NCBI GenBank assembly: GCA_949126835.1
Contig: OX421497.1
Coordinates: 43,174,226-43,238,225, forward strand
Source: Anisus vortex
Taxonomy: Eukaryota; Mollusca; Gastropoda; Planorbidae
Length of the DNA stretch: 64,000 nt
Reading direction: 5' to 3'
In this document: positions 7,304 through 60,535 of the stretch, one piece after another
How the letters are laid out: every line of letters starts with the position of its first letter
Position numbering within the stretch: position 1 is the stretch's first letter
Program-made: the position numbers and the translations under genes
Notes under the pieces: generated by a model
Database searches by the model: none
What the model saw: only the letters and a program-made list of their open reading frames with translations
Told to the model about the DNA's origin: nothing

Positions 7304-8398
7304 TCAATCCACACCAAGGGAGGACACTGAACATTGAAAATTAGTTATTAAGCATGCCACTGTCCATAACTGGTTCACTAAGCCTAACATACTGAAAGAA
7401 AATGCTGAATCGAACACACAAAATTGTTTCAAACGAATGGCTTTGTCCAGATACACCTGAACATCTGCAGCGTTCTTGCTTTTGAATGATTTATGTCCTA
7501 ACGTTGAATCACTTGATAAAACATTCGGCATTACCAGTGTGCATTTTCTTTCTTTTATGACATCAGATATTTGAAAATCTTTGGTGGCCATGACCTCATC
7601 TCCTTCTTCTAACAGATCTAAAATTCCAGAGTTAGATACTAGTGTAATGTCTGAGATGGATCCTGGGAAAAGATTACTTACAAAACAAACTGCACCTCCT
7701 GGAGTAAAACCTATCAAGCCTTTTACTGTTGCACTGCTTTTACTTCTGGAATAGAATTCATTACTCAGTGACGTTCTTGACAGAGTCTTGACAACTATTT
7801 TGATACTGTCAATGATGACTCTGGTCTTGGGGTGTGCTTTTTTAAAACATTTGGGCATGAACTGCTGTGCCCTTTGTTTGGATGGCCACAAAGGCTGTGA
7901 GCCCAAAACAAAGTATAGGAAGTTGGCCCAAGTAGTTGTGATTCTACTAACTGTTTTTGTGGACACTAGAAACTTGTCGGCCAAATCTCGATCATAGGAT
8001 CCAAGCCTCAGTTTGTTTAGAAACATAAACAGCTGATCAATTGGTTGAATCCTTTCGCCAGAAGACTTTGAACAATCAGTGTGTAGTTCTTGCTGGTCCC
8101 ACATTGTTATTTGTGGGATAAAAGATTCTATGCTGAGAAAGAAATTTGTTAGAGTTCTGTAATTAGGGAAACCTGTATAAAACTTTATGAGCTTATCACT
8201 ATTAGAAAATCTCTCCAAGCAAAATCTGTTCACAAAATACTGTTTCATTACTTCTTCAGATTGTATTTTCTCATCTGAATTATTGTTTTGTTCTAGAGCT
8301 GCATCCATTGGTATAATATAGTCATGCTCAAATGATGGTGGAGGTATAATATGCTGCTCACTATATTTACAGTCTTGAACTATGGGCAATTCTGTTTC
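7304..8398 (-). CDS. THAP-DDE transposase, exon 2 (with exon 1 at 13583-13966)
   Basis: This open exon begins after the acceptor TTTCAATTTCAG (reading GAAACAGAATTG on the minus strand) and encodes 364 residues ending SSLGVD. It carries a PPPSFEHDYI region, a helix-turn-helix (IQPIDQLFMFLNKLRLGSYD) and a DDE_Tnp_4-type catalytic domain (RVIIDSIKI, KGLIGFTPGG, FPGSISD, EGDEVMATKDF). It is very close to the 20635-21912 exon. The upstream THAP exon at 13966-13583 ends at phase 0 (AAGG|GTACG) and this exon starts at phase 0, giving a predicted 492-residue protein across a 5.2-kb intron filled with SINE, minisatellite and MITE insertions. The domain order THAP, HTH, DDE_Tnp_4 matches ISL2EU-type DNA transposons. 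The usual ADKGF motif reads ATKDF and the usual HVERA reads YLDKA, so cutting activity is doubtful. No frameshift or stop is visible. Confidence 0.8.
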   Translation of the reverse strand, partial: ETELPIVQDCKYSEQHIIPPPSFEHDYIIPMDAALEQNNNSDEKIQSEEVMKQYFVNRFCLERFSNSDKLIKFYTGFPNYRTLTNFFLSIESFIPQITMWDQQELHTDCSKSSGERIQPIDQLFMFLNKLRLGSYDRDLADKFLVSTKTVSRITTTWANFLYFVLGSQPLWPSKQRAQQFMPKCFKKAHPKTRVIIDSIKIVVKTLSRTSLSNEFYSRSKSSATVKGLIGFTPGGAVCFVSNLFPGSISDITLVSNSGILDLLEEGDEVMATKDFQISDVIKERKCTLVMPNVLSSDSTLGHKSFKSKNAADVQVYLDKAIRLKQFCVFDSAFSFSMLGLVNQLWTVACLITNFQCSVSSLGVD

Positions 8399-8589
8399 CT
8401 GAAATTGAAAATATATTGCAATATCAATAACAATATAATTTTGTTAATTAATGACTTCAAATTTAGTTATAAAGCTACAGTCAGTAAAATAATACAAGCT
8501 AATCATATAATATAACAATTTGACCACCCGTACGGCTGGCGTATTGAAGTTAATGGGTTTGAATAGGTGACGAATAGGATTTGTTTCCT

Positions 8590-13203: not shown

Positions 13204-13582
13204 CTATAGCCAATATTCTATATTCCTATATTTATATAGAGGCCTAGGCCTACTATCAGTGTATCAGTCTTTAAAAAAATACTATATTATTATTATTATA
13301 CTTATACTATATATTCTATATTCATAAATTCATAATTTTAAACGCCTACTGCATATATATTATAGAAATATAGGCTTACATTTATATAATGATATCATAA
13401 ATCTAAATATTATTTTAAATAGGCCTACCCACGCAATATCTAAGCTTAAAATTACATAAATAAGACTAATAAGACTCATAAAAGACAATTAGGCCTATCA
13501 TTAATTATGGTTAGTGCCTATGACCTATGAATATTGTTATACTTAATTATAGTATAGATCTATTTTTTTTTTTAAATCGTAC

Positions 13583-13966
13583 CCTTATGCGTTCTCTCTT
13601 TGCATATGCTCCTCTCGTTATGATTGGCTTTGAAGATTTAGACCTATGTAAACCGCTTTCGTTGAATAAATTCCTACTGGGTATTGCATCAGGGAGCAAT
13701 CTTGGTCTTGGTCTTTTTGTAACATACATTCTCTCTTCAGACATTGACAATGATCTCAGAAAAGAAGGGCGAGTGGACAGTTCTAAGTCCGTTTCTACGA
13801 AATGATCACTGCATAACATAGCCGATCTGCTTGGTTTAAAATTAGCTCTTCTTGTTTTGATTGTCCACTTTTTTCGTAAAATTGGATCATTCGGAAACTT
13901 GAAGAAACTTATTCCTGGTTTAAAGCCACTGTTTTTGCAACCGAAAGCGCTACAGTATCGAACCAT
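13583..13966 (-). CDS. THAP domain exon 1 of a THAP-DDE transposase
   Basis: The exon starts MVRYCSAFGCKNSGF and encodes 128 residues. A complete THAP zinc finger is visible: Cys5 and Cys10, FKFP near residues 22-25, Trp34, Cys52 and His55 (LCSDHF), and an AVPTIF-like DAIPSRNLF near residue 95. THAP domains bind DNA and occur in P-element and ISL2EU-type transposases and in host regulators. The last codon before a GTACG donor is phase 0, matching the phase of the minus-strand transposase exon starting at 8398; the join would read KRERIR|ETELPIVQD, parallel to KVRVIEKIPLPTAQD in the paralogue at 20.8 kb. It could instead be the first exon of a stand-alone host THAP gene. An in-frame Met 18 codons upstream is possible but lies outside the domain. 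Confidence 0.75.
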
Positions 13967-14104
13967 TTTCGTACGGTAGCCTACACAAAAATAACCTAGT
14001 TTAATCAGAGAATGCCGCAATGTAAATATATGAATGAATAGGTATGTACTATGTATGTTACATTGTTAGTTTTAGATTACTCAGCTGTATTGTGTTTTCA
14101 CTTT

Positions 14105-19679: not shown

Positions 19680-20634
19680 TATATATAATATATATATAGC
19701 AATATAGCCTACTATAAATTGAATTATATATAATATTATATATCAACTGTCAGACCCTTGTCATTGTATAGAAGTGGATTATATTTATATTTATAATTTA
19801 TTATTAATATAATTAGAATATTTTAATTTTATAATTGTAATAAAAGATATAGGCTATATAATATAGACAACTTTAGTGCAAATTAGGTGCAATAGAATTT
19901 TTATTCTGATTAAATTCTGATAAGTAAACTAATATATTTTCGCTAACTGCATTATAATAGGTTAAGAATTCAAATTAGGTTGATTAAATAGATCTTTTTT
20001 GTAAATTCAAATTTTAATTTCTAATTTTTCGGAAAAAAAATTGAATGTGATAAAACTGTATAATTATCAGTTGTGTAGCCAGGATTGCAAGGTGGGGTTG
20101 GCAAATAGTCCAAGATAGGAGAGGTAGAGGGCAGTGTATAATGTGCAGGGGGATGTGTGCAATAATGTTTAAGAGGCATTACAGGCATAGATAAGTGTTT
20201 TTTTTAAATAAAATAAGAGTGTTATAAATAAATAATAAGGTTTATTAGTTAGGGCCTACTATATATACACACAGGCTACTCTTTTGCAAAAAATATAATT
20301 TATAGTCTCTGAATTTATAGTCTTAACCAGAGCTCATCTCGGCCAACTATCCCGTTTTTTTAATTTTATTTCCCTCAATAAATAATACTTATAGAATTAT
20401 CATAAACAAAAAATTGACATAGTGTATTTTGATAAATAGATAAATACTAGTACCAATTCAGTACTGGGCTGAATTTTAAATCATCTACTTGTTTAGACCC
20501 AATTTTAAGAACATAAACATACTATTAGTGAAGAATGATTTATTATAGTATTTGAGTATCATTTTACTGGCAGTAGCTTATGAAATGCATTTTCAATTAA
20601 TCTAATAATTATAATGTATATTTTCATTTTTCAG

Positions 20635-21912
20635 GTAACACAATTCACACGTATCTGCTCAGCACATTTTGAAGAAGATGACTATAAAAAAACTTTCCTG
20701 AACTTGCCTACAAACACCTTAAAGCCATCTGCAGTTCCTTCAGTTTTTAAATGGACAGAAAGCACATATGTCCCCAAACCACCAAAAGTTAGGGTGATAG
20801 AAAAGATTCCATTGCCCACAGCTCAAGACTCTCAATGTGTAGAACAGTCTACAATCCCTCCACCATCATTTGAGCATGACTATATTGTAAAAGTGGATAC
20901 ATCTCTTGAGGAAAAGAATAAACTTCTTGAAGAGAAAGTACAACAGTTGGAGGAAGTAATTAAAAAATATTCTGTGAACAGATTTTGCTTGGAAAGATTT
21001 TCTAACAGTGATAAGCTCATAAAGTTTTATACAGGTTTCCCTAATTACAGTACTTTAACTAATTTCTTTCTAAGCATAGAATCCTATATTCCTCATATGG
21101 TGACATGGTGCCAGAAGGAACGACAGAATGGTCGTTCAAATAAGACCTTGAATTCTTTTGGTGGAAGGATTCTACCAATAGATCAGCTGTTTATGTTTCT
21201 AAACAAACTGAGGCTTGGGTGCAAAGATCAAGATTTGGCCGACAAGTTCTTAGTATCCCGAATTACAGTTTGTAGACACACAAAAACATGGGCCAACTTT
21301 TTATATTTCATTTTGGGCTCACAGCCTTTGTGGCCATCCAAACAAAAGGTACAGCAGTTAATGCCCAAATGTTTTCAAGAAGCATTCCCCAACACAAGAG
21401 TCATTATTGACTGTATCGAAATTGTTATTCAAAATCCATCAAGAGTGTCACTAGGTAGTGAATTCTATTCCAGAAGTAAAAGCAGTGCAACAGTAAAAGG
21501 TTTGATAGGTTTTACTCCAGGAGGTGCAGTTTGTTTTGTAAGTAATCTTTTCCCAGGTTCCATCTCAGACAACTCACTAGTATCTAACTCTGGAATTTTA
21601 GATCTGTTAGAAGAAGGAGATGAGGTCATGGCCACCAAAGATTTTCAAATATCTGATGTCATAAAAGAAAGAAAATGCACACTGGTAATACCGAATGTTT
21701 TATCAAGTGATTTAATGTTAGGGCATGAAGCAGTAAATAGCAAGAACGCTGCAGATGTTCAGGTATATCTGGACAAAGCCAATCAACGTTTGAAACAGTT
21801 TCGCCTGTTTGAATCAGAATTTTCTTTGTACTTAGTGAACCAGTTATGGACAGTGGCATGCTTAATAACAAATTTTCAATATTCAGTGACAGCCCCTGGC
21901 ACGGCGGATTAA
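20635..21912 (+). CDS. THAP-DDE transposase, exon 2
   Basis: Begins after the acceptor CATTTTTCAG and runs 425 codons to a stop; with exon 1 (16487-16660) the protein is 483 residues. Order of parts: second half of the THAP finger (RICSAHFEEDDY, AVPSVF), a coiled coil (LEEKNKLLEEKVQQLEEV), a helix-turn-helix (LPIDQLFMFLNKLRLG, VSRITVCRHTKTW), and a DDE_Tnp_4-like nuclease domain (RVIIDCIEI, GLIGFTPGG, FPGSISDNS, DEVMATKDF). This is the layout of ISL2EU-type transposases, which excise and insert DNA elements. The motif normally read ADKGF is ATKDF here, and the region of the catalytic Glu (usually HVERA) reads YLDKA. Both changes are shared with the 7304-8398 copy. The frame is uninterrupted, so either the family uses an unusual triad or the protein has lost catalysis and been kept for DNA binding. 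Confidence 0.85.
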   Translation, partial: VTQFTRICSAHFEEDDYKKTFLNLPTNTLKPSAVPSVFKWTESTYVPKPPKVRVIEKIPLPTAQDSQCVEQSTIPPPSFEHDYIVKVDTSLEEKNKLLEEKVQQLEEVIKKYSVNRFCLERFSNSDKLIKFYTGFPNYSTLTNFFLSIESYIPHMVTWCQKERQNGRSNKTLNSFGGRILPIDQLFMFLNKLRLGCKDQDLADKFLVSRITVCRHTKTWANFLYFILGSQPLWPSKQKVQQLMPKCFQEAFPNTRVIIDCIEIVIQNPSRVSLGSEFYSRSKSSATVKGLIGFTPGGAVCFVSNLFPGSISDNSLVSNSGILDLLEEGDEVMATKDFQISDVIKERKCTLVIPNVLSSDLMLGHEAVNSKNAADVQVYLDKANQRLKQFRLFESEFSLYLVNQLWTVACLITNFQYSVTAPGTAD

Positions 21913-40721: not shown

Positions 40722-42150
40722 TTCTTCTTCTTCTTTATGTGCCAGGTCTGGAGCAGACATCGGCGGTCATGACTCTCCATTCTTTCCTGTTGTTAGCTTT
40801 TTGCAGAAAGTTATTATTACTTATGTTGTTGTTCGTGACCCAATCGTTCAGGCTTTCTACATATGTTAGCCTTTGTCTTCCTCTGTCTCTCTTACCAGAT
40901 ATTTTCCCACACAAGCCAGTCTTTCTATACCATTTTCCTATAGATGTGTCCTAGAAATTTCATCTGTCTATTCCTAATGGTGTTAATGAGTTCTCTTGAG
41001 GTACATGCTGTTTTCAACACCTCTGCATTAGATTTCTTTTCAGTCCATGATATTCTCATCATCCTTCTTAGAAACCACATTTCTACTGCCTCCAATCTTT
41101 TCCTTGTTTCATTATCAATAGTCCAACATTCACATCCATATAGAAGAACAGACCAAACATACCCCTTCAGTATGCGCATTTTGGTACATATTCTGATATT
41201 TCTGTTTTTCATGATACTTCTTAAGCTCATGAAGCTGTTTTTAGCTATTGCGATTCTTCTCTTTATTTCTTTGTTGCATTTGACTTCCTGTGTTATTGTA
41301 TAGCCTAGATACTGGAAAGAATTGATTTGCTTGATGTTTTCACCTTCACTGGATAAAGAGCATCTTGGAGGTTGTCTTTTCTTAGAGATTACCATTACTT
41401 CGGTCTTACTGAGATTGAGTGTTAATCCTTTAAGTCGGCTCTCTTCTACCACCTTATTTAGAATAGTTTGCAGGGCACTTTCTGATTCTGCTATTAGTAG
41501 CCTACTGTGTCATCTGCATATCTCAGATTATTTATATTCTTTCCTCCAACTTTAATACCATCTAGGTGTTCGATATTCCGGAGTATTATTTCACTGTAGA
41601 TGTTGAAGAGGTCTGGTGATAAAACACATCCCTGTCTTACTCCTCTCTTTATTGGTTTGAATGCACTTAACTCCCCTTCATATCTAATGGCATCTTCTTG
41701 CTCCCAGTATAGATTTCTTATTATTCTGAGGTCTTTACCATCTATGTCCAGATCTTGTAATATATTAAATAGATCTTGATGTTTGACTTTGTCAAATGCC
41801 TTAGAATAATCTATAAAGCATAGATACAGGTCTTTTTGCATCTGGATGCATCTTTCAATTAACATAGATAAGGTGAAAATAGCATTTCTTGTGCTTTTAT
41901 CTGCAACAAATCCAAACTGGGTTTCTGAAATTTCCGGACGGATTTTACTTCTTATTCTTTCCATGATTATTCTGAGGAGTATTTTTGTGACATGATTCAT
42001 TAAGCTAATTGTTCTGTGTGATTCACACTCTGTTGCTCCAGGTTTCTTGGGTATTGTGATGAAAATTGATCTGCTTAAGCTTGAGGGGATCTTACCAGTA
42101 TCATATATTTTGTTAACAAGTTGAGTTATTTCATTATGTACCAGATTACA
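40722..42150 (-). pseudogene. RTE-like LINE reverse transcriptase, 5'-truncated and frameshifted
   Basis: On the minus strand, from about 42150: KIPSSLSRSIFITIPKKPGA, HRTISLMNHVTKILL, ETQFGFVADKSTRNAI, CFIDYSKAFDKVKH, GVRQGCVLSPDLFNIY, then the catalytic LRYADDTV. Two lesions are visible. At 41500-41504 a GGCTA/GCCTA insertion after ACAGTA shifts the frame and creates stops; the thumb region then continues as KVVEESRLKGLTLNLSKTEV through QYLGYTI and LYGCECWT. Near 40940 a one-base loss in an A run ends the frame at RKMV, with the rest (ERLACVGKISGKRDRGRQRL, NRKEWRVMTADVC) in another frame to a GAA-repeat tail at 40734-40720. The element lacks the endonuclease. RTE or a close relative is the best match by motif. 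Confidence 0.85.
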
Positions 42151-45032: not shown

Positions 45033-45698
45033 ATGGGAGCAGCTAGCCAGAATCGTCTGTCAACGCGAGACTATTTAATTCGACTTGCGTCATTCCGCCA
45101 TATTTCTTTAAACTTCCGAACTGAGATTGTGCATCCGATGAGCTTGGCAATGTCTGGTTTTTACTATTCAGGAAGCGGAAGTGACGTTATTTGCTCAGCG
45201 TGTGCTAAAAAGGTGGATCTAAAGAAATTCGCAAACGACCCTAGTGACCGCGACTACCATAACCCAGATTGTTCGTTTGTGAAATTAACGCTAAGGGATA
45301 CTTTTGAAGACAGTCAAAACTTTGATACAACTCCAAACAGAGACATAAATTCGGATTATTTGCGAGGTTCATCTGTCGAGCCTGAAATCAGCCCAGCAAT
45401 AATTTCCGTTTTTGGCAACGCTGACCCTACTTCACATTCCAGGTTAAAAGAAAGTGACCAGTCACATGCTAGAAATAATGAAAGGTCAGTCCGTGAAATG
45501 ACCAGGAGTTTACTTGATCGAGAAAACCAAGCCCTGAAACAACAGATGCAATGTAAATCCTGTAAGACTTCACCTGTCCAAGATTTATTCCTGCCGTGTG
45601 GAGAGATGTACACGTGCAAAGATTGTTCCAATAAATTCACACATTGTCCATCTTGTGGGAAGAGAATTCTGGGAACTGTCACAGTTTTCTTCTCATGA
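45033..45698 (+). CDS. IAP-like protein with one BIR-like domain and a C-terminal RING
   Basis: A 221-residue single-exon frame. Residues about 18-88 form a BIR-like fold (RLASFRHIS, SLAMSGFYYSGSGSDVIC, SACAKKVD, NDPSDRDYHNPDCSF). Residues about 174-221 form an IAP-type RING (CKSC, DLFLPCG, YTCKDC, HCPSCGKRILGTV) ending with the FFS tail usual in IAPs. IAPs bind caspases through BIR domains and ubiquitinate targets through the RING. Two departures stand out. The BIR His that normally follows DPxxE is displaced (DPSDRDYH, one residue short), and the RING His after CG is Glu (LPCGEMYTC). Zinc binding may be weakened at both. The start is the first ATG, 31 bp after a possible acceptor. The same-strand BIR gene at 54.8 kb is a likely family neighbour. 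BIRC7-like by layout; function inferred. Confidence 0.85.
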   Translation: MGAASQNRLSTRDYLIRLASFRHISLNFRTEIVHPMSLAMSGFYYSGSGSDVICSACAKKVDLKKFANDPSDRDYHNPDCSFVKLTLRDTFEDSQNFDTTPNRDINSDYLRGSSVEPEISPAIISVFGNADPTSHSRLKESDQSHARNNERSVREMTRSLLDRENQALKQQMQCKSCKTSPVQDLFLPCGEMYTCKDCSNKFTHCPSCGKRILGTVTVFFS

Positions 45699-54819: not shown

Positions 54820-57800
54820 ATGTCAGAAGGTCAATATTTCTCGGGATATAACACAAACCAAATGAACCGGGTGGCGTCTTTTCGGACAATGCCCAGACAG
54901 TATATACAAAAAGACATTTCCTGTCTGAAAATATCAGAGGCTGGCTTTTCTTATACTGGTCAAGGCTCATTGGTCAAATGTGAACATTGTGACAACGGAA
55001 TATTTCTGGAACGTTTTGAGAACAATGGCGAGATGCTCGATCCAAAGCACGCAATGTTCCACAAAGACTTTTGTATCTTTTCACATGGAAACTCCCAGAA
55101 AACATCCACTACAAGCCAAGAGATTGTTTCTGATACAAGCAGCTCAACTGTATTTGGAGACAATCTTACCAATCATACATCAAATGGAGTCTATAGAAGT
55201 CATCTCGAAACTGACAACATACACATTCCAATGCACACATCCCAAAACAATCATGTTTACGGTATTGCTATTTTTTTTTATATATGGCCAATACATTAGC
55301 TTTTTTTAAAAATTAGATAACTAGACAAGTAGAATAATAATGAAATACATGTTTGACGATAACGATATCTATTTTGCAGATGATTCTGAGGACGTTGTTC
55401 CGGAAGTTGAAAATACTAATTCGCAGAGTTCCAACAATGGAATAATTTGTGAAAAAAATCCTGGCCACTTCGGTTATTTTTATACCAGAAATCTGAGACA
55501 AGAAAATGTTCCTGGGCCAGCTAGGCTTCCATGTGTTGTTAAATTGTTGCAATTGTTGTCAATGCTCACAGTCAGAATAATTGTAGAATGCAAGGGTGCC
55601 ATCAAGACTGGGACAGGGTTTGTATCTATGGATGCAAGCATCAATGAAAACGACACAGCGGAAGAAGCAGACTCTAATAGAAATGGAAGCCAGCACGAAT
55701 GTGGAAAAATATACATAGAGACCAGCAAGCATGTTGTAAGTAGCATTGATGACACCAGCAAAGTGAAAGTTGAGTTCTTCTATGACGATCACCGGAAAGG
55801 TCAGGTGAAATCCGTGGGGGTGGCATCAGTTCAAGCGAATCTCCCCATTGGTGATTCCAGGTCGTTGCTGGTTTGCAGGCTGCCCGAGGTGGAGTTTGTC
55901 CAAAATATCATAGAGCTGAGACGCCAGATGGTTGAGGTGGTTAGCACCATCCCTGACAGCGTTAAAGAATTTCTGAGCAAGAAGGTTTTCATCATTCATC
56001 ACCCACACGGTGGGAACAAAGTTATGAGTCACGGTGATTTTGTGTTAGTGAAACACAGACTTGTGCCAGAGAGCGACGGCAGGCGGTTGAAGCTTCATAA
56101 ATTGTCTGCTACAGAGTCTGGTAAGTCTCAGAGAAATATTTCAAGTATATATCATAAAATATATACTCGTAGACAGTGCTTTTTTTGTAAAAAAAAATAG
56201 GTGCCGGTACTCAGTGATGGATTTCCTAACTTTTAACTACCAGTTTGCACCTTGATGCAAGCTAAATCAAGACTGCAAATATACTAAATTAAATTAATAA
56301 TATAATAAATTAATAATAAACGTTAAAATACAAGAAAAGTAATAATTTTTTCCCCACATTGAAAAAGGTGCCGGTACGCAGTACCGGTGCGTACTGTCAC
56401 AAAAAAAGCACTGCTCGTAGAAATTTTCCTTGCCGGAAGAAATCGATATTTTATTCAGCAAATTTAGTAAATAAAAAAATATATCACAGCTATCTAAAAT
56501 TCAAAGTAAACCTGAACCTCATCTAGTTCTTTTTGATATGATACACATTGTTTAATACATTAAAAAAAAGTATATTTAGTAGGCCTGCCAAAAGTTAATT
56601 GTTTGATTTTATCTTCAACACCATATTTATATAAACTAAACATTACTTTTCATCTAATCATGCATGTGTAAATAGTCATTAATTTGTTTCCAATAGAACT
56701 TCTAAAAATGAAGTTAAGTTTTTGAAAAGTTCAAATTAGGCCTATCTACAATGAACTGGTTTGATCAGATTCGATATTTTTTCTATATTTAATAATATTA
56801 TTGTCTAGAAAAAAACTCAATCTTGATTTTTCTAATCAATAGAATCAATTACAAATACTTAATAAAATAATGATTTTTTAAATAGTTTTTACCGTTTTTT
56901 TTGTTAGTTTGTTTCGTTTTACCGTTAGTTTGTTTCGTTTTTTGTTTCATTAAGGGACTATTGGTAACCTACACATCTGGGTCCACTCTTTCTTTTGAAC
57001 TACCGGTATTTCTGTTTCAAAGGGTTTTGTTGTGGAACTGATGCCGACTTTCAAGTCATATCTGAAAGGATGGACTAGCTAATAAAACTTAGTCGTCGGC
57101 TTAAAAATTAAATCTCGTGTATGTTATAAGTAGCCTACTAATGCACATGTTTGATCCCAGAACATTCGCAATCAAGTTATCCTTACATTGTGGACTTTTT
57201 CCTCGGATATAAAGGGGTCTCCACAGTATAATGAAGAAGAAGAAGATGAATACACATCTGGATCACGGCTTTCTTTAAAAGTGTGTTTCTGTATTTTCTC
57301 CGTGTGCTATTTTAGAACAAAGGTAGCGAAACCGATAATTTAAGATCACTTCACCCTTTCATCGGCTAGACTTAATCCGCAAAAATGGGAAAACTATACT
57401 TTAGCAAGACGTTGGATTAACGTTAAACCGTTAAGTACAGATAATATACTACGTCTCTAATTAAACCACGGATATGCGAAGAATAAATAATCTTGGGGAT
57501 AAGTTTTTTTTTTTTTAAAATTACCAGATAGGTTAAACCAGAAATACCACATGGTGTAGAATGCTAAATTACATTCGAGAAGTTCCGCAGTTAACTTGGT
57601 TCTCAGTGAGTCAGCCAAGACCGGAAGCTTTTTTCCTCAACACAACCAAAACTAAATCCATTTTCTTTCTTTTTCTAAAGGGGATTTCAAGAAGTAAAAA
57701 GGAAATGCGTTCTAATAATTTATCAACACAGAAAGCATGGATTGAGATTGTTTATACGAAACTATGTACGTTTTAACCCCCCCCCCCCCCCTCTGGATGC

Positions 57801-58631
57801 ATGACACGTACTTTAAACATATTTAGAAAACTTCCTGTTATAAAAGGTCAAATGAAAATGATACCAAGGCGAATTTGTTCATTAATAGCACCTTCAAAAT
57901 TGCAATCATATGTTTAAAAATGTGTGTTAATTTATTGAGGTAACGAAATCAATAATTTAAAAAATCTATATTATAAATATCTTAGAGCAGAATCTGCAAG
58001 AGGAGCACGCTCCCCCAGGGGCACATTAAATTCCGACGTCTTGCGAGACAAATGAAAGCCAACAACAACAATAACTAGAGCAAAATTAAAATACACTAGT
58101 TTCTTAACTAAATACTTAAAAAAATATATAATGTGTGTACTTTTAACCTTTTTCTTTCAAGCAAATGAGACTACGAAGGACGTGTACAAGATGTTAATGT
58201 ACGCTGCTGACACCTGCAAGGGCTCTACCGGCGCCCCAATCATTACATTCAGGAGGAGAACACCCAATGATAGGTACCTTCTGGATATCTGGATTCACAA
58301 TGGCCATAGCAAGGAACATGGACTAGGAACCTCTGTTATGAAAGGTGATATCAGTTATATTATAACTCAGTTATTTTTCAGAGGCTTTTGGGCCTATGTA
58401 AACAGGTAGTCAATTAAGTCTTTTTTAAAACCATATTTATCGCAGTCAGAACTACCTCGAATCTGTTTGACCTTGAAAGGTAATAGACTTCCTTGCCCCA
58501 AAAAGGTAACAAGAAAAAAAAGTTGGTCAAAGTTTAATTAGTTTTCTTAGTCAGCGTATCAGAGTTCAAACGCTCAAACTATAGGCCTATGTAGTATGTT
58601 TTTAAAGTCTAAGTAATCATCTCTATATATG

Positions 58632-58685
<54 letters not shown>

Positions 58686-58722
58686 CATTCATCCATCTAT
58701 CTATGTATCTTTCCATCGGTCG

Positions 58723-58813
<91 letters not shown>

Positions 58814-58929
58814 CATCCATCCATCCATCTATCTATGTATCTTTCCATCGGTCGATCGATCTATCTATCTATCTTTCTTTCTATCATCTATCAATCAATC
58901 AATCTATCAATCTATCTATCAATCAATCA

Positions 58930-58961
<32 letters not shown>

Positions 58962-60330
58962 GTTAGTTTTTCTGTCAATCTATTTTCCTATCTTTTAATC
59001 TATCTTACTGTCCATTCTTCTAATTATCTAGCTTTCTAATATACATCCCTACAATTATAACATGCTTAAGACCCATAAACTATCATGGAGTCAACGTCGA
59101 TATCAAGGGTTCAATAAACGTACCTACCTATGACGTTATACAAGTTAATGAACTTATAAAGATGTGCTAGTCTTCAAATACATTTTATTTTATAACAAAC
59201 CATTTCGGTAAATAAATCGCTGTCTGTAAATCACCATGTCTGTGATCCATACAAATATTTGCATATGTCTCTATCAGTTTTACATGATCTCTATTTGCCT
59301 GTCATCGAACCAGCTTGAATAGTCGATATATTCAAACTAAAAGCTGTTAAAACAACTTAAATAAATGCAGGCCTAGAGTCTTTATCATAATCACTTATTG
59401 AATTTTTCTCTATCAATAGTCTGCGACACAGATGACTTTGGCCCAGCCACCATCTCCACAACGCTAAGCACAAGTAACGCAGTTGAACAGATGCCTGATT
59501 CAAATGACCAGCAATCTAGTCTTGATTTGTCACCAACTGCCCCAGTGGTGCATCCATCCTATCCAGCGTTTATCACAAAGCAGAAGCGGTTGGAAAGTTT
59601 TCAGGATTGGCGCCATCAAAATATTCACGAACCTGATTATCTTGCAAGTGTTGGTTTCTTTTATGCAGGTCAGTGTTTTGTAGTAGGACCCTTTCAATTT
59701 TGAGCCTTTAAAGATCATAAAACATATATGATCTTCCACAACATGGTTTTAAAAAAAATATTAATCTCTTAGGCTAACAAAACATTATTAATTAAAAACA
59801 CGATTTTACCTAGATTTAATTTCGTTATTTTTTTTCTTGTGACCCGTTATTATGGAAATTGGGATTTATAGAATAGAAAGCCTTAAGGCAATAGGTGTTA
59901 ACTGAAAAATAATTTTATCCTATAAGTTTACAGACGTTCCTTCTAGATAGAAGATTATTACGTCCACTAGGCCCAAAACTCCTGCAGGGCGACAGGGATC
60001 CGTCGGTGGCAGGGCTAGAACCCGCGACCTGTCAATTGGTTTTTGGTTGACAGTCCGGTGAACTAACCGCTGGACCAGCCGGCTTCACAATGTCATAATG
60101 TCAGGATCTAGGTAAAAAAAAATTGTGTTTTTATAGAAATGTTATTTTCTTATTTAATGCCTTCAGGTTATTCTGACTGTGTCCGGTGCTTTCAGTGTGG
60201 TCTTGGGCTACGCTCATGGAAGCCCGGAGACAGCATTCTGGAGGAGCACAAGAAGTACAGATCAAGTTGCCCGTTTCTCCAGACCCTGTTGGCCAGAGGG
60301 GAAACCCATTGTCAAATGATGATTTCGTGA
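54820..60330 (+). CDS. five-exon BIR - trypsin-like (PA clan) - BIR protein
   Basis: Predicted exons 54820-55261, 55380-56120, 58162-58344, 59420-59668 and 60167-60330 give 592 residues. Every junction is a GT-AG phase-1 intron and the joined length is a multiple of three. Residues ~17-88: BIR-like fold ([40 protein letters not shown]) with altered spacing. Residues ~200-450: trypsin-like/PA fold with [23 protein letters not shown] (candidate catalytic His), [13 protein letters not shown] (possible Asp), IIHHPHGG, and [11 protein letters not shown] where proteases of the FAM111/HtrA/V8 type have GSSGxP, so the nucleophile position is Thr. Residues ~512-580: a canonical BIR ([22 protein letters not shown]-x16-H-x6-C). 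IAP-type BIRs bind caspases or IAP-binding motifs; the middle domain may be a protease or pseudoprotease. The ATG at 54820 follows a 5' UTR acceptor at 54712. A likely immunity or cell-death regulator. Confidence 0.75.
56174..56413. mobile_element. hAT-type MITE, 240 bp, in intron 2 of the BIR-protease gene
   Basis: The termini CAGTGCTTTTTTTGT and ACAAAAAAAGCACTG are perfect inverted repeats, with GGTGCCGGTAC motifs inside each. CTCGTAGA is duplicated exactly at 56166-56173 and 56414-56421. A recent, well-preserved insertion. Confidence 0.92.
58630..58980. repeat. (CTAT)n microsatellite in intron 3
   Basis: Long CTAT arrays with CCAT interruptions cover some 340 bp. A segment CCATCTATCTATGTATCTTT and CCATCGGTCGATC occurs twice (58690 and 58815), so the array also duplicated as a larger unit. 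The Tyr-Leu-Ser-Ile frames here are artefacts. Confidence 0.9.
59968..60090 (-). repeat. SINE family 2, 5' half, in intron 4
   Basis: The reverse complement starts TTGTGAAGCCGGCTGGTCCA and runs through GCGGGTTCTAGCCC to GCCCTGCAGGAGTTTTGGGC, matching the SINE at 38088-38297 but lacking the 3' part. It lies between exons 4 and 5 of the BIR-protease gene, antisense to it. Confidence 0.85.
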
Positions 60331-60535
60331 GATCTGATAATGACACCATCATTGTTTTACTCGTAAAGAACTTTCTCACGCAGACAATGAGACAACAACG
60401 GACGATAAAACAGCTACTGCCAATAAGACAGCTACTGCCAATAAGACAGCTCAAGTCTCCAATAACGTAGAAACCAACAACAATCAAACAAAAGACACTG
60501 CCCTACCTACAGCAGATGTCTTGGTGGAAGTCTAA
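60331..60535 (+). other. coding-like tail after the BIR-protease stop, in other frames
   Basis: Directly after the TGA at 60328-60330 one frame reads [16 protein letters not shown], and another reads RKELSHADNETTTDDKTAT then LPTADVLVEV to a TAA at 60533. An 18-bp direct repeat (AAGACAGCTACTGCCAAT) lies within. Composition looks protein-like, so the annotated C-terminus may be shortened by an indel or an unrecognised splice. It may equally be 3' UTR. Confidence 0.35.

Follow-up and report, generated by a model that had tools for sequence, protein, structure and literature searches.

Inhibitor of apoptosis proteins (IAPs) are caspase binders and ubiquitin ligases, and animals counter them with a separate protease, HtrA2. 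To our knowledge, no PA-clan (trypsin-like) domain lies between the baculoviral IAP repeat (BIR) domains of BIRC7/ML-IAP, XIAP or NAIP/BIRC1. Here, a gene of the planorbid snail Anisus vortex was analysed in a stretch of 64,000 nucleotides (assembly GCA_949126835.1, contig OX421497.1, positions 43,174,226 to 43,238,225), hereafter the window, in whose numbering all coordinates are given. The gene, at 54820-60330 on the + strand, encodes the window protein, in which a domain with a predicted PA fold is placed between two BIRs. The window protein resembles BIRC7/ML-IAP, XIAP and NAIP/BIRC1 in its C-terminal BIR with CX2C...HX6C and the groove Trp, and differs from them in having the PA domain between the BIRs and, in the Pfam scan, no RING, CARD, UBA or NACHT.

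Proteases of the same fold differ in other ways. In HtrA2/Omi and the HtrA family the protease domain is combined with a PDZ; none was found in the window protein (Pfam scan, E ≤ 10), where the PA domain is followed only by a linker and a BIR. HtrA2 is a protein separate from the IAPs, whereas the window protein has both parts in one chain, with Thr at the nucleophile position. The V8/Esp glutamyl endopeptidases and picornain 3C, the top protease folds for the models of two relatives, share with the family a His in the substrate-pocket motif, but they are active bacterial or viral enzymes without a BIR; the Cys nucleophile of picornain 3C is replaced by Thr in the window protein and is found in 13 of 49 aligned family rows. 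FAM111A/B resembles the family described here in being an animal protein whose PA-clan domain is of the Trypsin_2 type. For FAM111, an intact triad is described and, in vertebrate members, two ubiquitin-like domains (UBLs), and no BIR fusion is named in the available part of that source (PMC9798293). The window protein, with Thr417, does not have the intact triad, and no UBL was detected by its Pfam scan, a scan UBLs can escape.

Expanded IAP families of molluscs are the nearest comparison by organism. In the available text on oyster (PMC8917759) and hard clam (PMC7831173), the expansions are likewise lineage-specific, with BIRs accompanied or not by RING and some novel BIR types, and the architectures combine BIR with RING, UBA, DD, UBC or PC4; the words "trypsin" and "peptidase" occur in neither main text and "protease" once in each. 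BIR expansions were also reported in the genomes of Biomphalaria glabrata (about 50 genes; PMC5440852) and Bulinus truncatus (117; PMC8861042), with no protease domain named in the available portions, in which the exact role of such expansions in schistosome-host snails is described as not yet understood or merely suggested. A literature search for BIR or IAP together with a protease or trypsin-like domain yielded no fusion by title or abstract start, supplements, subscription papers and preprints lying outside its scope. As far as the literature was searched, an IAP architecture with an internal PA domain has not been described previously.

Gene model, BIR domains and predicted fold

The five exons were re-derived from the DNA and add up to 1779 nt (442 + 741 + 183 + 249 + 164), which form a frame of 592 codons and a stop without internal stops; the four introns are all GT-AG and all in phase 1. 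The exons and domains are as follows.

54820..55261, +, exon 1: ends after one base of codon 148 and contains Met1 and the N-terminal BIR; donor GTATTG at 55262, phase 1
55380..56120, +, exon 2: the PA domain's first barrel and a portion of its second; acceptor TTTGCAG, donor GTAAGT
58162..58344, +, exon 3: nucleophile loop and substrate-pocket strand; acceptor TTTCAAG, donor GTGATA
59420..59668, +, exon 4: linker, then first half of the C-terminal BIR; acceptor CAATAG, donor GTCAGT
60167..60330, +, exon 5: remaining half of the C-terminal BIR, followed by a short tail and the TGA stop (60328-60330); acceptor CCTTCAG
54868..55083, +, N-terminal BIR (residues 17-88): CX2C...HX3C, no Trp, short, degenerate; ligands Cys54, Cys57, His81, Cys85
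55445..58343, +, PA-clan domain (residues 170-455, exons 2 and 3)
59587..60282, +, C-terminal BIR (residues 512-577, exons 4 and 5): canonical, type-II-like; Pfam BIR full profile 1-70

Nearly end-to-end matches were obtained by protein search between the joined model and P0001 of Bulinus truncatus (596 residues; 45% identity over 95%, E 1.8e-147) and P0002 of Biomphalaria glabrata (581 residues; 44% over 96%), and the exon junctions sit within stretches collinear with both relatives. By these alignments, the match of the joined model to its relatives is far beyond chance. An alternative start is possible at Met15 (54862), the position where P0002 begins. Identity was lowest in exon 1 (28-34% to P0001-P0004), rose through exon 2 (43-49%) and exon 3 (47-59%) to the same four relatives, and reached 80% to P0001 and 74% to P0002 in exon 5, the best-kept part of the gene. 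Separate genes for the BIRs and the middle region were considered and rejected on the collinear relatives, being unlikely as far as their predicted proteins tell.

The Pfam BIR profile matched the whole window protein in two stretches (E 5.5e-27) and the first 116 residues alone above the gathering score (E 7.3e-6); the N-terminal BIR also touched the NuBaID/zf-C3HC profile below the cut-off. In the C-terminal BIR, zinc is expected to be held by C546, C549, H566 and C573, and the solved structures nearest to it by sequence were NAIP/BIRC1, BIRC7 and XIAP BIR2. W556 and D560 of the groove are present, with Glu565 and Tyr569 at the other two positions examined. By the residue list generally known for the type II groove that receives an IAP-binding motif, the C-terminal BIR is predicted to have such a groove. 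Having at least one BIR with CX2C...H...C zinc ligands, the window protein is classed by its residues as an IAP, or BIR-containing, protein.

The middle region, about 290 residues, matched no Pfam family at E ≤ 10 in the window protein itself. At E ≤ 1, Trypsin_2 (PF13365) matched 18 of 34 relatives (best 6.9e-5, the scores examined being below the gathering score) and Peptidase_C3 matched four of them (best 0.013). P0001 is predicted to fold as a PA barrel; the double beta-barrel of PA-clan peptidases was found in models of relatives, not of the window protein, for which the PA fold is predicted from them. The P0001 model was also matched by FAM111A chain 8s9k_D (Foldseek E 5.1e-5), and solved BIRs matched its BIR at 30-42% identity among the matches listed. 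Structural neighbours of the PA domain included picornavirus 3C and polyproteins of picorna-like invertebrate viruses, one from a Biomphalaria pfeifferi virus, which presumably match through their 3C part. In the viral fold library, IAPs and polyproteins appeared as separate rows with no named fusion among the 50 matches listed, several of which are nameless. When the PA-domain profile was compared with PDB sequences, the sole match at E ≤ 10 was a V-ATPase subunit (E 0.018), surely by chance, so kinship to known proteases rests on the fold, the weak Pfam matches and the motifs.

The preliminary description of this DNA, made from the sequence alone, had joined the same five exons into 592 residues and read them as BIR, PA fold and BIR in one chain. 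The exon model was confirmed by the re-derivation, and the domain order is supported by the Pfam BIRs at each end, the collinear relatives and the PA fold in the models of relatives.

Family distribution and catalytic positions

A search of the joined protein against 5.8 billion clustered proteins returned 38 matches, 34 of which covered the PA region. A second search, with the middle region of Lymnaea stagnalis P0005, returned 35 matches including the query itself, all with E below 1e-49, from Biomphalaria, Bulinus, Lymnaea and Physella and once from the sea slug Plakobranchus ocellatus (P0045); P0015 and P0050 came without organism. A BIR stood in the precomputed Pfam column for 34 of these 35 (none for P0044), and a trypsin domain, PF13365, for P0042 only. 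The source names were "baculoviral IAP repeat-containing protein 7", "RING-type domain-containing", "uncharacterized", "hypothetical" and "unnamed". The highest PA-domain identity of the window protein to a relative was 52%. Judged from these searches, the fusion is an expanded family of freshwater snails and one sea slug, not a one-off; the layout, which the preliminary description had proposed to seek in other molluscs, is common to the window protein and 46 relatives, 47 aligned rows in all. In P0007, P0032 and P0037, the first BIR is preceded by a long N-terminal extension that includes hydrophobic stretches; these proteins are perhaps anchored in the membrane, or are products of joins made in annotation.

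A third search, with a domain profile, found ten stand-alone relatives of the PA domain (P0058-P0067, 313-403 residues, E 6e-25 to 3e-18) from Biomphalaria, Physella and Elysia marginata, two of them without organism names. The KNPGH motif at the domain start is shared by nine of the ten, and all ten have His-Asp-Ser. In the tree, a 100/100 branch separates 47 fused rows from nine stand-alone rows, so a single joining fits. From these sequences, the PA domain likely originated in these animals as a protease of its own that was later joined to an IAP. Bacterial or viral relatives were not seen in a two-pattern scan, in which 9 stretches in viral contigs and 64 in genome contigs were picked out and none was a relative by tblastn, a scan that is no proof of absence. 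The protein searches depend on words of five residues in common and are subject to limits on length, and in the third, scores were computed only for the 7995 candidates with the most such words; a BIR-PA fusion outside these snails could consequently escape them.

The rows were defined as follows. P0035-P0038, having no PA domain, were left out of the 49-row alignment, and P0044, for which no BIR is listed, and P0052, which lacks the nucleophile region, out of the 47-row and 42-row counts; P0052 was also left out of a wider set of 63 rows. The tree omits P0044, P0060 and the truncated proteins P0053-P0057, which list no BIR, have the nucleophile region missing or unaligned and were not counted as stand-alone.

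Across the 47 rows, the N-terminal BIR ligands are present in 43-44, the remainder being gaps save one Gly, and the ligand columns of the C-terminal BIR show gaps in three. A RING pattern is present in 34 of the 47, so the common design of the family is BIR-PA-BIR-RING. P0001, P0002 and the window protein stop soon after the C-terminal BIR without a RING: the Pfam scan of the window protein found none before the stop at 60328, and tblastn of 67 proteins against the window gave nine matches past 60330, all with E of 3 or worse. Directly after the stop, an open stretch in another frame (60344-60535, +) is Thr/Asn/Ala-rich and coding-like; RING-bearing relatives have a linker there.

The positions of the putative active site are listed below.

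55730..55732, +, His265 (CAT), catalytic-His position: column His in 43 of 49 rows
55853..55855, +, Asp306 (GAT), catalytic-Asp position: column Asp in 39 of 49 rows
58227..58229, +, Thr417 (ACC), nucleophile position in CKGSTGAP: column of 49 rows with 29 Ser, 13 Cys, 5 Thr, 1 Ala and 1 gap
58296..58298, +, His440 in W-x-H-x-G, predicted to be the His of the S1 pocket: column His in all 47 rows, and in 58 of 63 in the wider set, the other five being gaps

A complete His-Asp-Ser was found in 20 of the 49 rows and a complete His-Asp-Cys in 12. The 13 Cys rows include P0018, P0025, P0031, P0039 and P0048, and His and Asp are kept in 12 of the 13, a pattern as in active Cys proteases. Because all ten stand-alone relatives have His-Asp-Ser, Ser is the likely ancestral nucleophile. 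When the three catalytic columns were left out of tree building, at least seven changes between Ser and Cys were required among 50 Ser/Cys rows. These alignments suggested a possible change from serine to cysteine protease within one animal gene family. Grouping of all Cys rows as one clade was rejected by the AU test (p 0.0007), but little weight is put on this result, since a well-optimised constrained tree would be expected to show a log-likelihood gap smaller than the 362 obtained. The W-x-H-x-G motif lies 23 residues beyond the nucleophile in the window protein. In V8-type and 3C proteases, a His at the pocket position makes the pocket select Glu or Gln, and a P1 preference for Glu or Gln is accordingly a prediction, by analogy, for the PA domain.

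The window protein belongs to a clade of five with P0001, P0002, P0003 and P0004 (100/100 support), on a long stem branch of 0.57. The triad residues are HDT in the window protein, HEA in P0001, RNT in P0002 and P0003, and NDS in P0004; thus none of the five has a canonical triad (His-Asp-Ser or His-Asp-Cys), compared with 31 of the 42 other fused rows. His and Gly of the pocket His-x-Gly are kept by all five, and among the 95 columns conserved in other rows, 68 are shared by four or all five members.

The window protein has His265, Asp306 and Thr417 in place of a His-Asp-Ser or His-Asp-Cys triad, and its domain was therefore regarded as a PA-fold homologue and not filed as a peptidase. The preliminary description had spoken of a protease fold between two BIRs. 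"Protease fold" was right, whereas "protease" is probably not for this gene, given Thr417 and a clade without canonical triads; the layout of BIR, protease fold and BIR also stood, but the common form adds a RING that the window copy lacks.

Interpretation and alternative explanations

Our preferred interpretation, with a probability of roughly 0.55, is that the gene product is an IAP-type protein without a RING, with a domain of predicted PA fold, likely dead (Thr417), between a degenerate and a canonical BIR. It would act by binding only and regulate cell death or immune signalling as a decoy or scaffold. The catalytic loss is a prediction from the residues. The C-terminal BIR would dock partners with an IAP-binding motif, such as caspases or Smac/HtrA2-like proteins, and the PA domain would hold a second partner, uncut, through a Glu/Gln-type peptide in the retained His-x-Gly pocket. 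Without a RING, the protein would be unable to ubiquitinate what it holds, and its partners would be shielded or sequestered from paralogues in which a single chain carries BIRs, a RING and a Ser or Cys protease that appears to be active. We infer these partners, the P1 preference and the role in cell death or immunity.

Several observations weigh against this interpretation. The window copy retains His and Asp, P0004 of the same clade retains Ser, and Thr is no proof of death; Thr at the nucleophile position needs at least four changes on the tree, which could mean that Thr has a use. Nineteen of the 95 well-conserved columns are kept by no more than two of the five members, so the whole domain has drifted. 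In a control, 16% of random triples of equally conserved columns were retained no better than the triad; a selective loss of catalysis is therefore unsupported, and the clade evolves fast over the whole domain. The S1-His assignment derives from the motif and general knowledge of V8 and 3C proteases, not from a superposed structure. P0003 and P0004 end inside the C-terminal BIR, so that the RING-less state is seen in only three of the five clade members.

A wider scenario for heterobranch snails is offered tentatively. A Glu/Gln-specific 3C/V8-like protease may have been inserted between two BIRs upstream of a RING, so that one chain would recognise, cut and ubiquitinate death or immune factors; its nucleophile would have switched repeatedly between Ser and Cys, and the RING-less, protease-dead branch with the window gene would be kept as a dominant decoy for active paralogues or pathogen proteases.

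It is rather unlikely that constraint on the PA domain has relaxed, leaving it a relic, and that only the C-terminal BIR is at work, as in an ordinary IAP without a RING. Such decay would agree with the far better conservation of exon 5 than of exons 2 and 1, with the long stem of the clade and with triad columns that decay at the pace of comparable columns. However, the domain is open and full-length in the window gene, Bulinus and Biomphalaria, and the 68 kept columns, together with the pocket His and Gly kept by all members, are at odds with it.

Still less probable is that the window protein has kept protease activity, using Thr417 as its nucleophile or working slowly, and cleaves itself or IAP partners as an HtrA2 within the chain would. 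His265 and Asp306 are retained, Thr recurs in five of 49 rows by at least four changes, and the family does switch its nucleophile between Ser and Cys; but Thr is generally a crippling change in a trypsin-like active site, and sister sequences show His changed to Arg or Asn and Ser to Ala.

A PA domain serving as decoy or sensor for pathogen proteases, for example the 3C of snail picorna-like viruses, with the family expanded in an arms race, has very little probability: viral 3C and polyproteins are among the structural neighbours and BIR families are reported as expanded in schistosome-host snails in the available text of PMC8861042, but a common fold demonstrates no interaction. That the locus is a pseudogene of recent origin or two genes joined together, which the stop right after the BIR and the coding-like stretch at 60344-60535 might suggest, is highly improbable in view of the uninterrupted 592-codon frame, the four GT-AG phase-1 introns and the collinear relatives, two of which also end soon after the BIR.

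Surroundings of the gene and significance

A second gene of the same kind lies about 9 kb upstream (45033-45698, +), with an uninterrupted 221-codon frame in which a BIR (Pfam E 5.5e-8) is followed by a RING (E 1.2e-9), without PA domain or second BIR; it is perhaps a single-exon derivative. A long TCTA-type simple repeat was seen inside the third intron (58640-58960, +). A bacterial-type promoter scan upstream of the gene gave one site against 3.7 expected, a type of scan not apt for animal DNA. Elsewhere in the window, two similar DDE_Tnp_4 transposase frames (20584-21912, +, and 7304-8443, -), which we take to be Harbinger-like, were found, the former with a partial THAP match just below the cut-off. 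A THAP-domain frame lies at 13547-14065, - (E 6.3e-15), and a reverse transcriptase frame at 41494-42150, - (RVT_1 E 7.4e-30), of which the overlapping frame 40925-41509, -, looks like a continuation.

A protease fold inside the IAP itself would unite recognition, cutting and ubiquitin tagging in one molecule, and the likely dead branch formed by the window clade would provide a natural control. The variation of Ser, Cys and Thr at one catalytic position, against ten stand-alone relatives that are all Ser, means that close paralogues could be used to test a change of nucleophile. The carriers of this BIR-PA-BIR family include Biomphalaria and Bulinus, the hosts of schistosomes.

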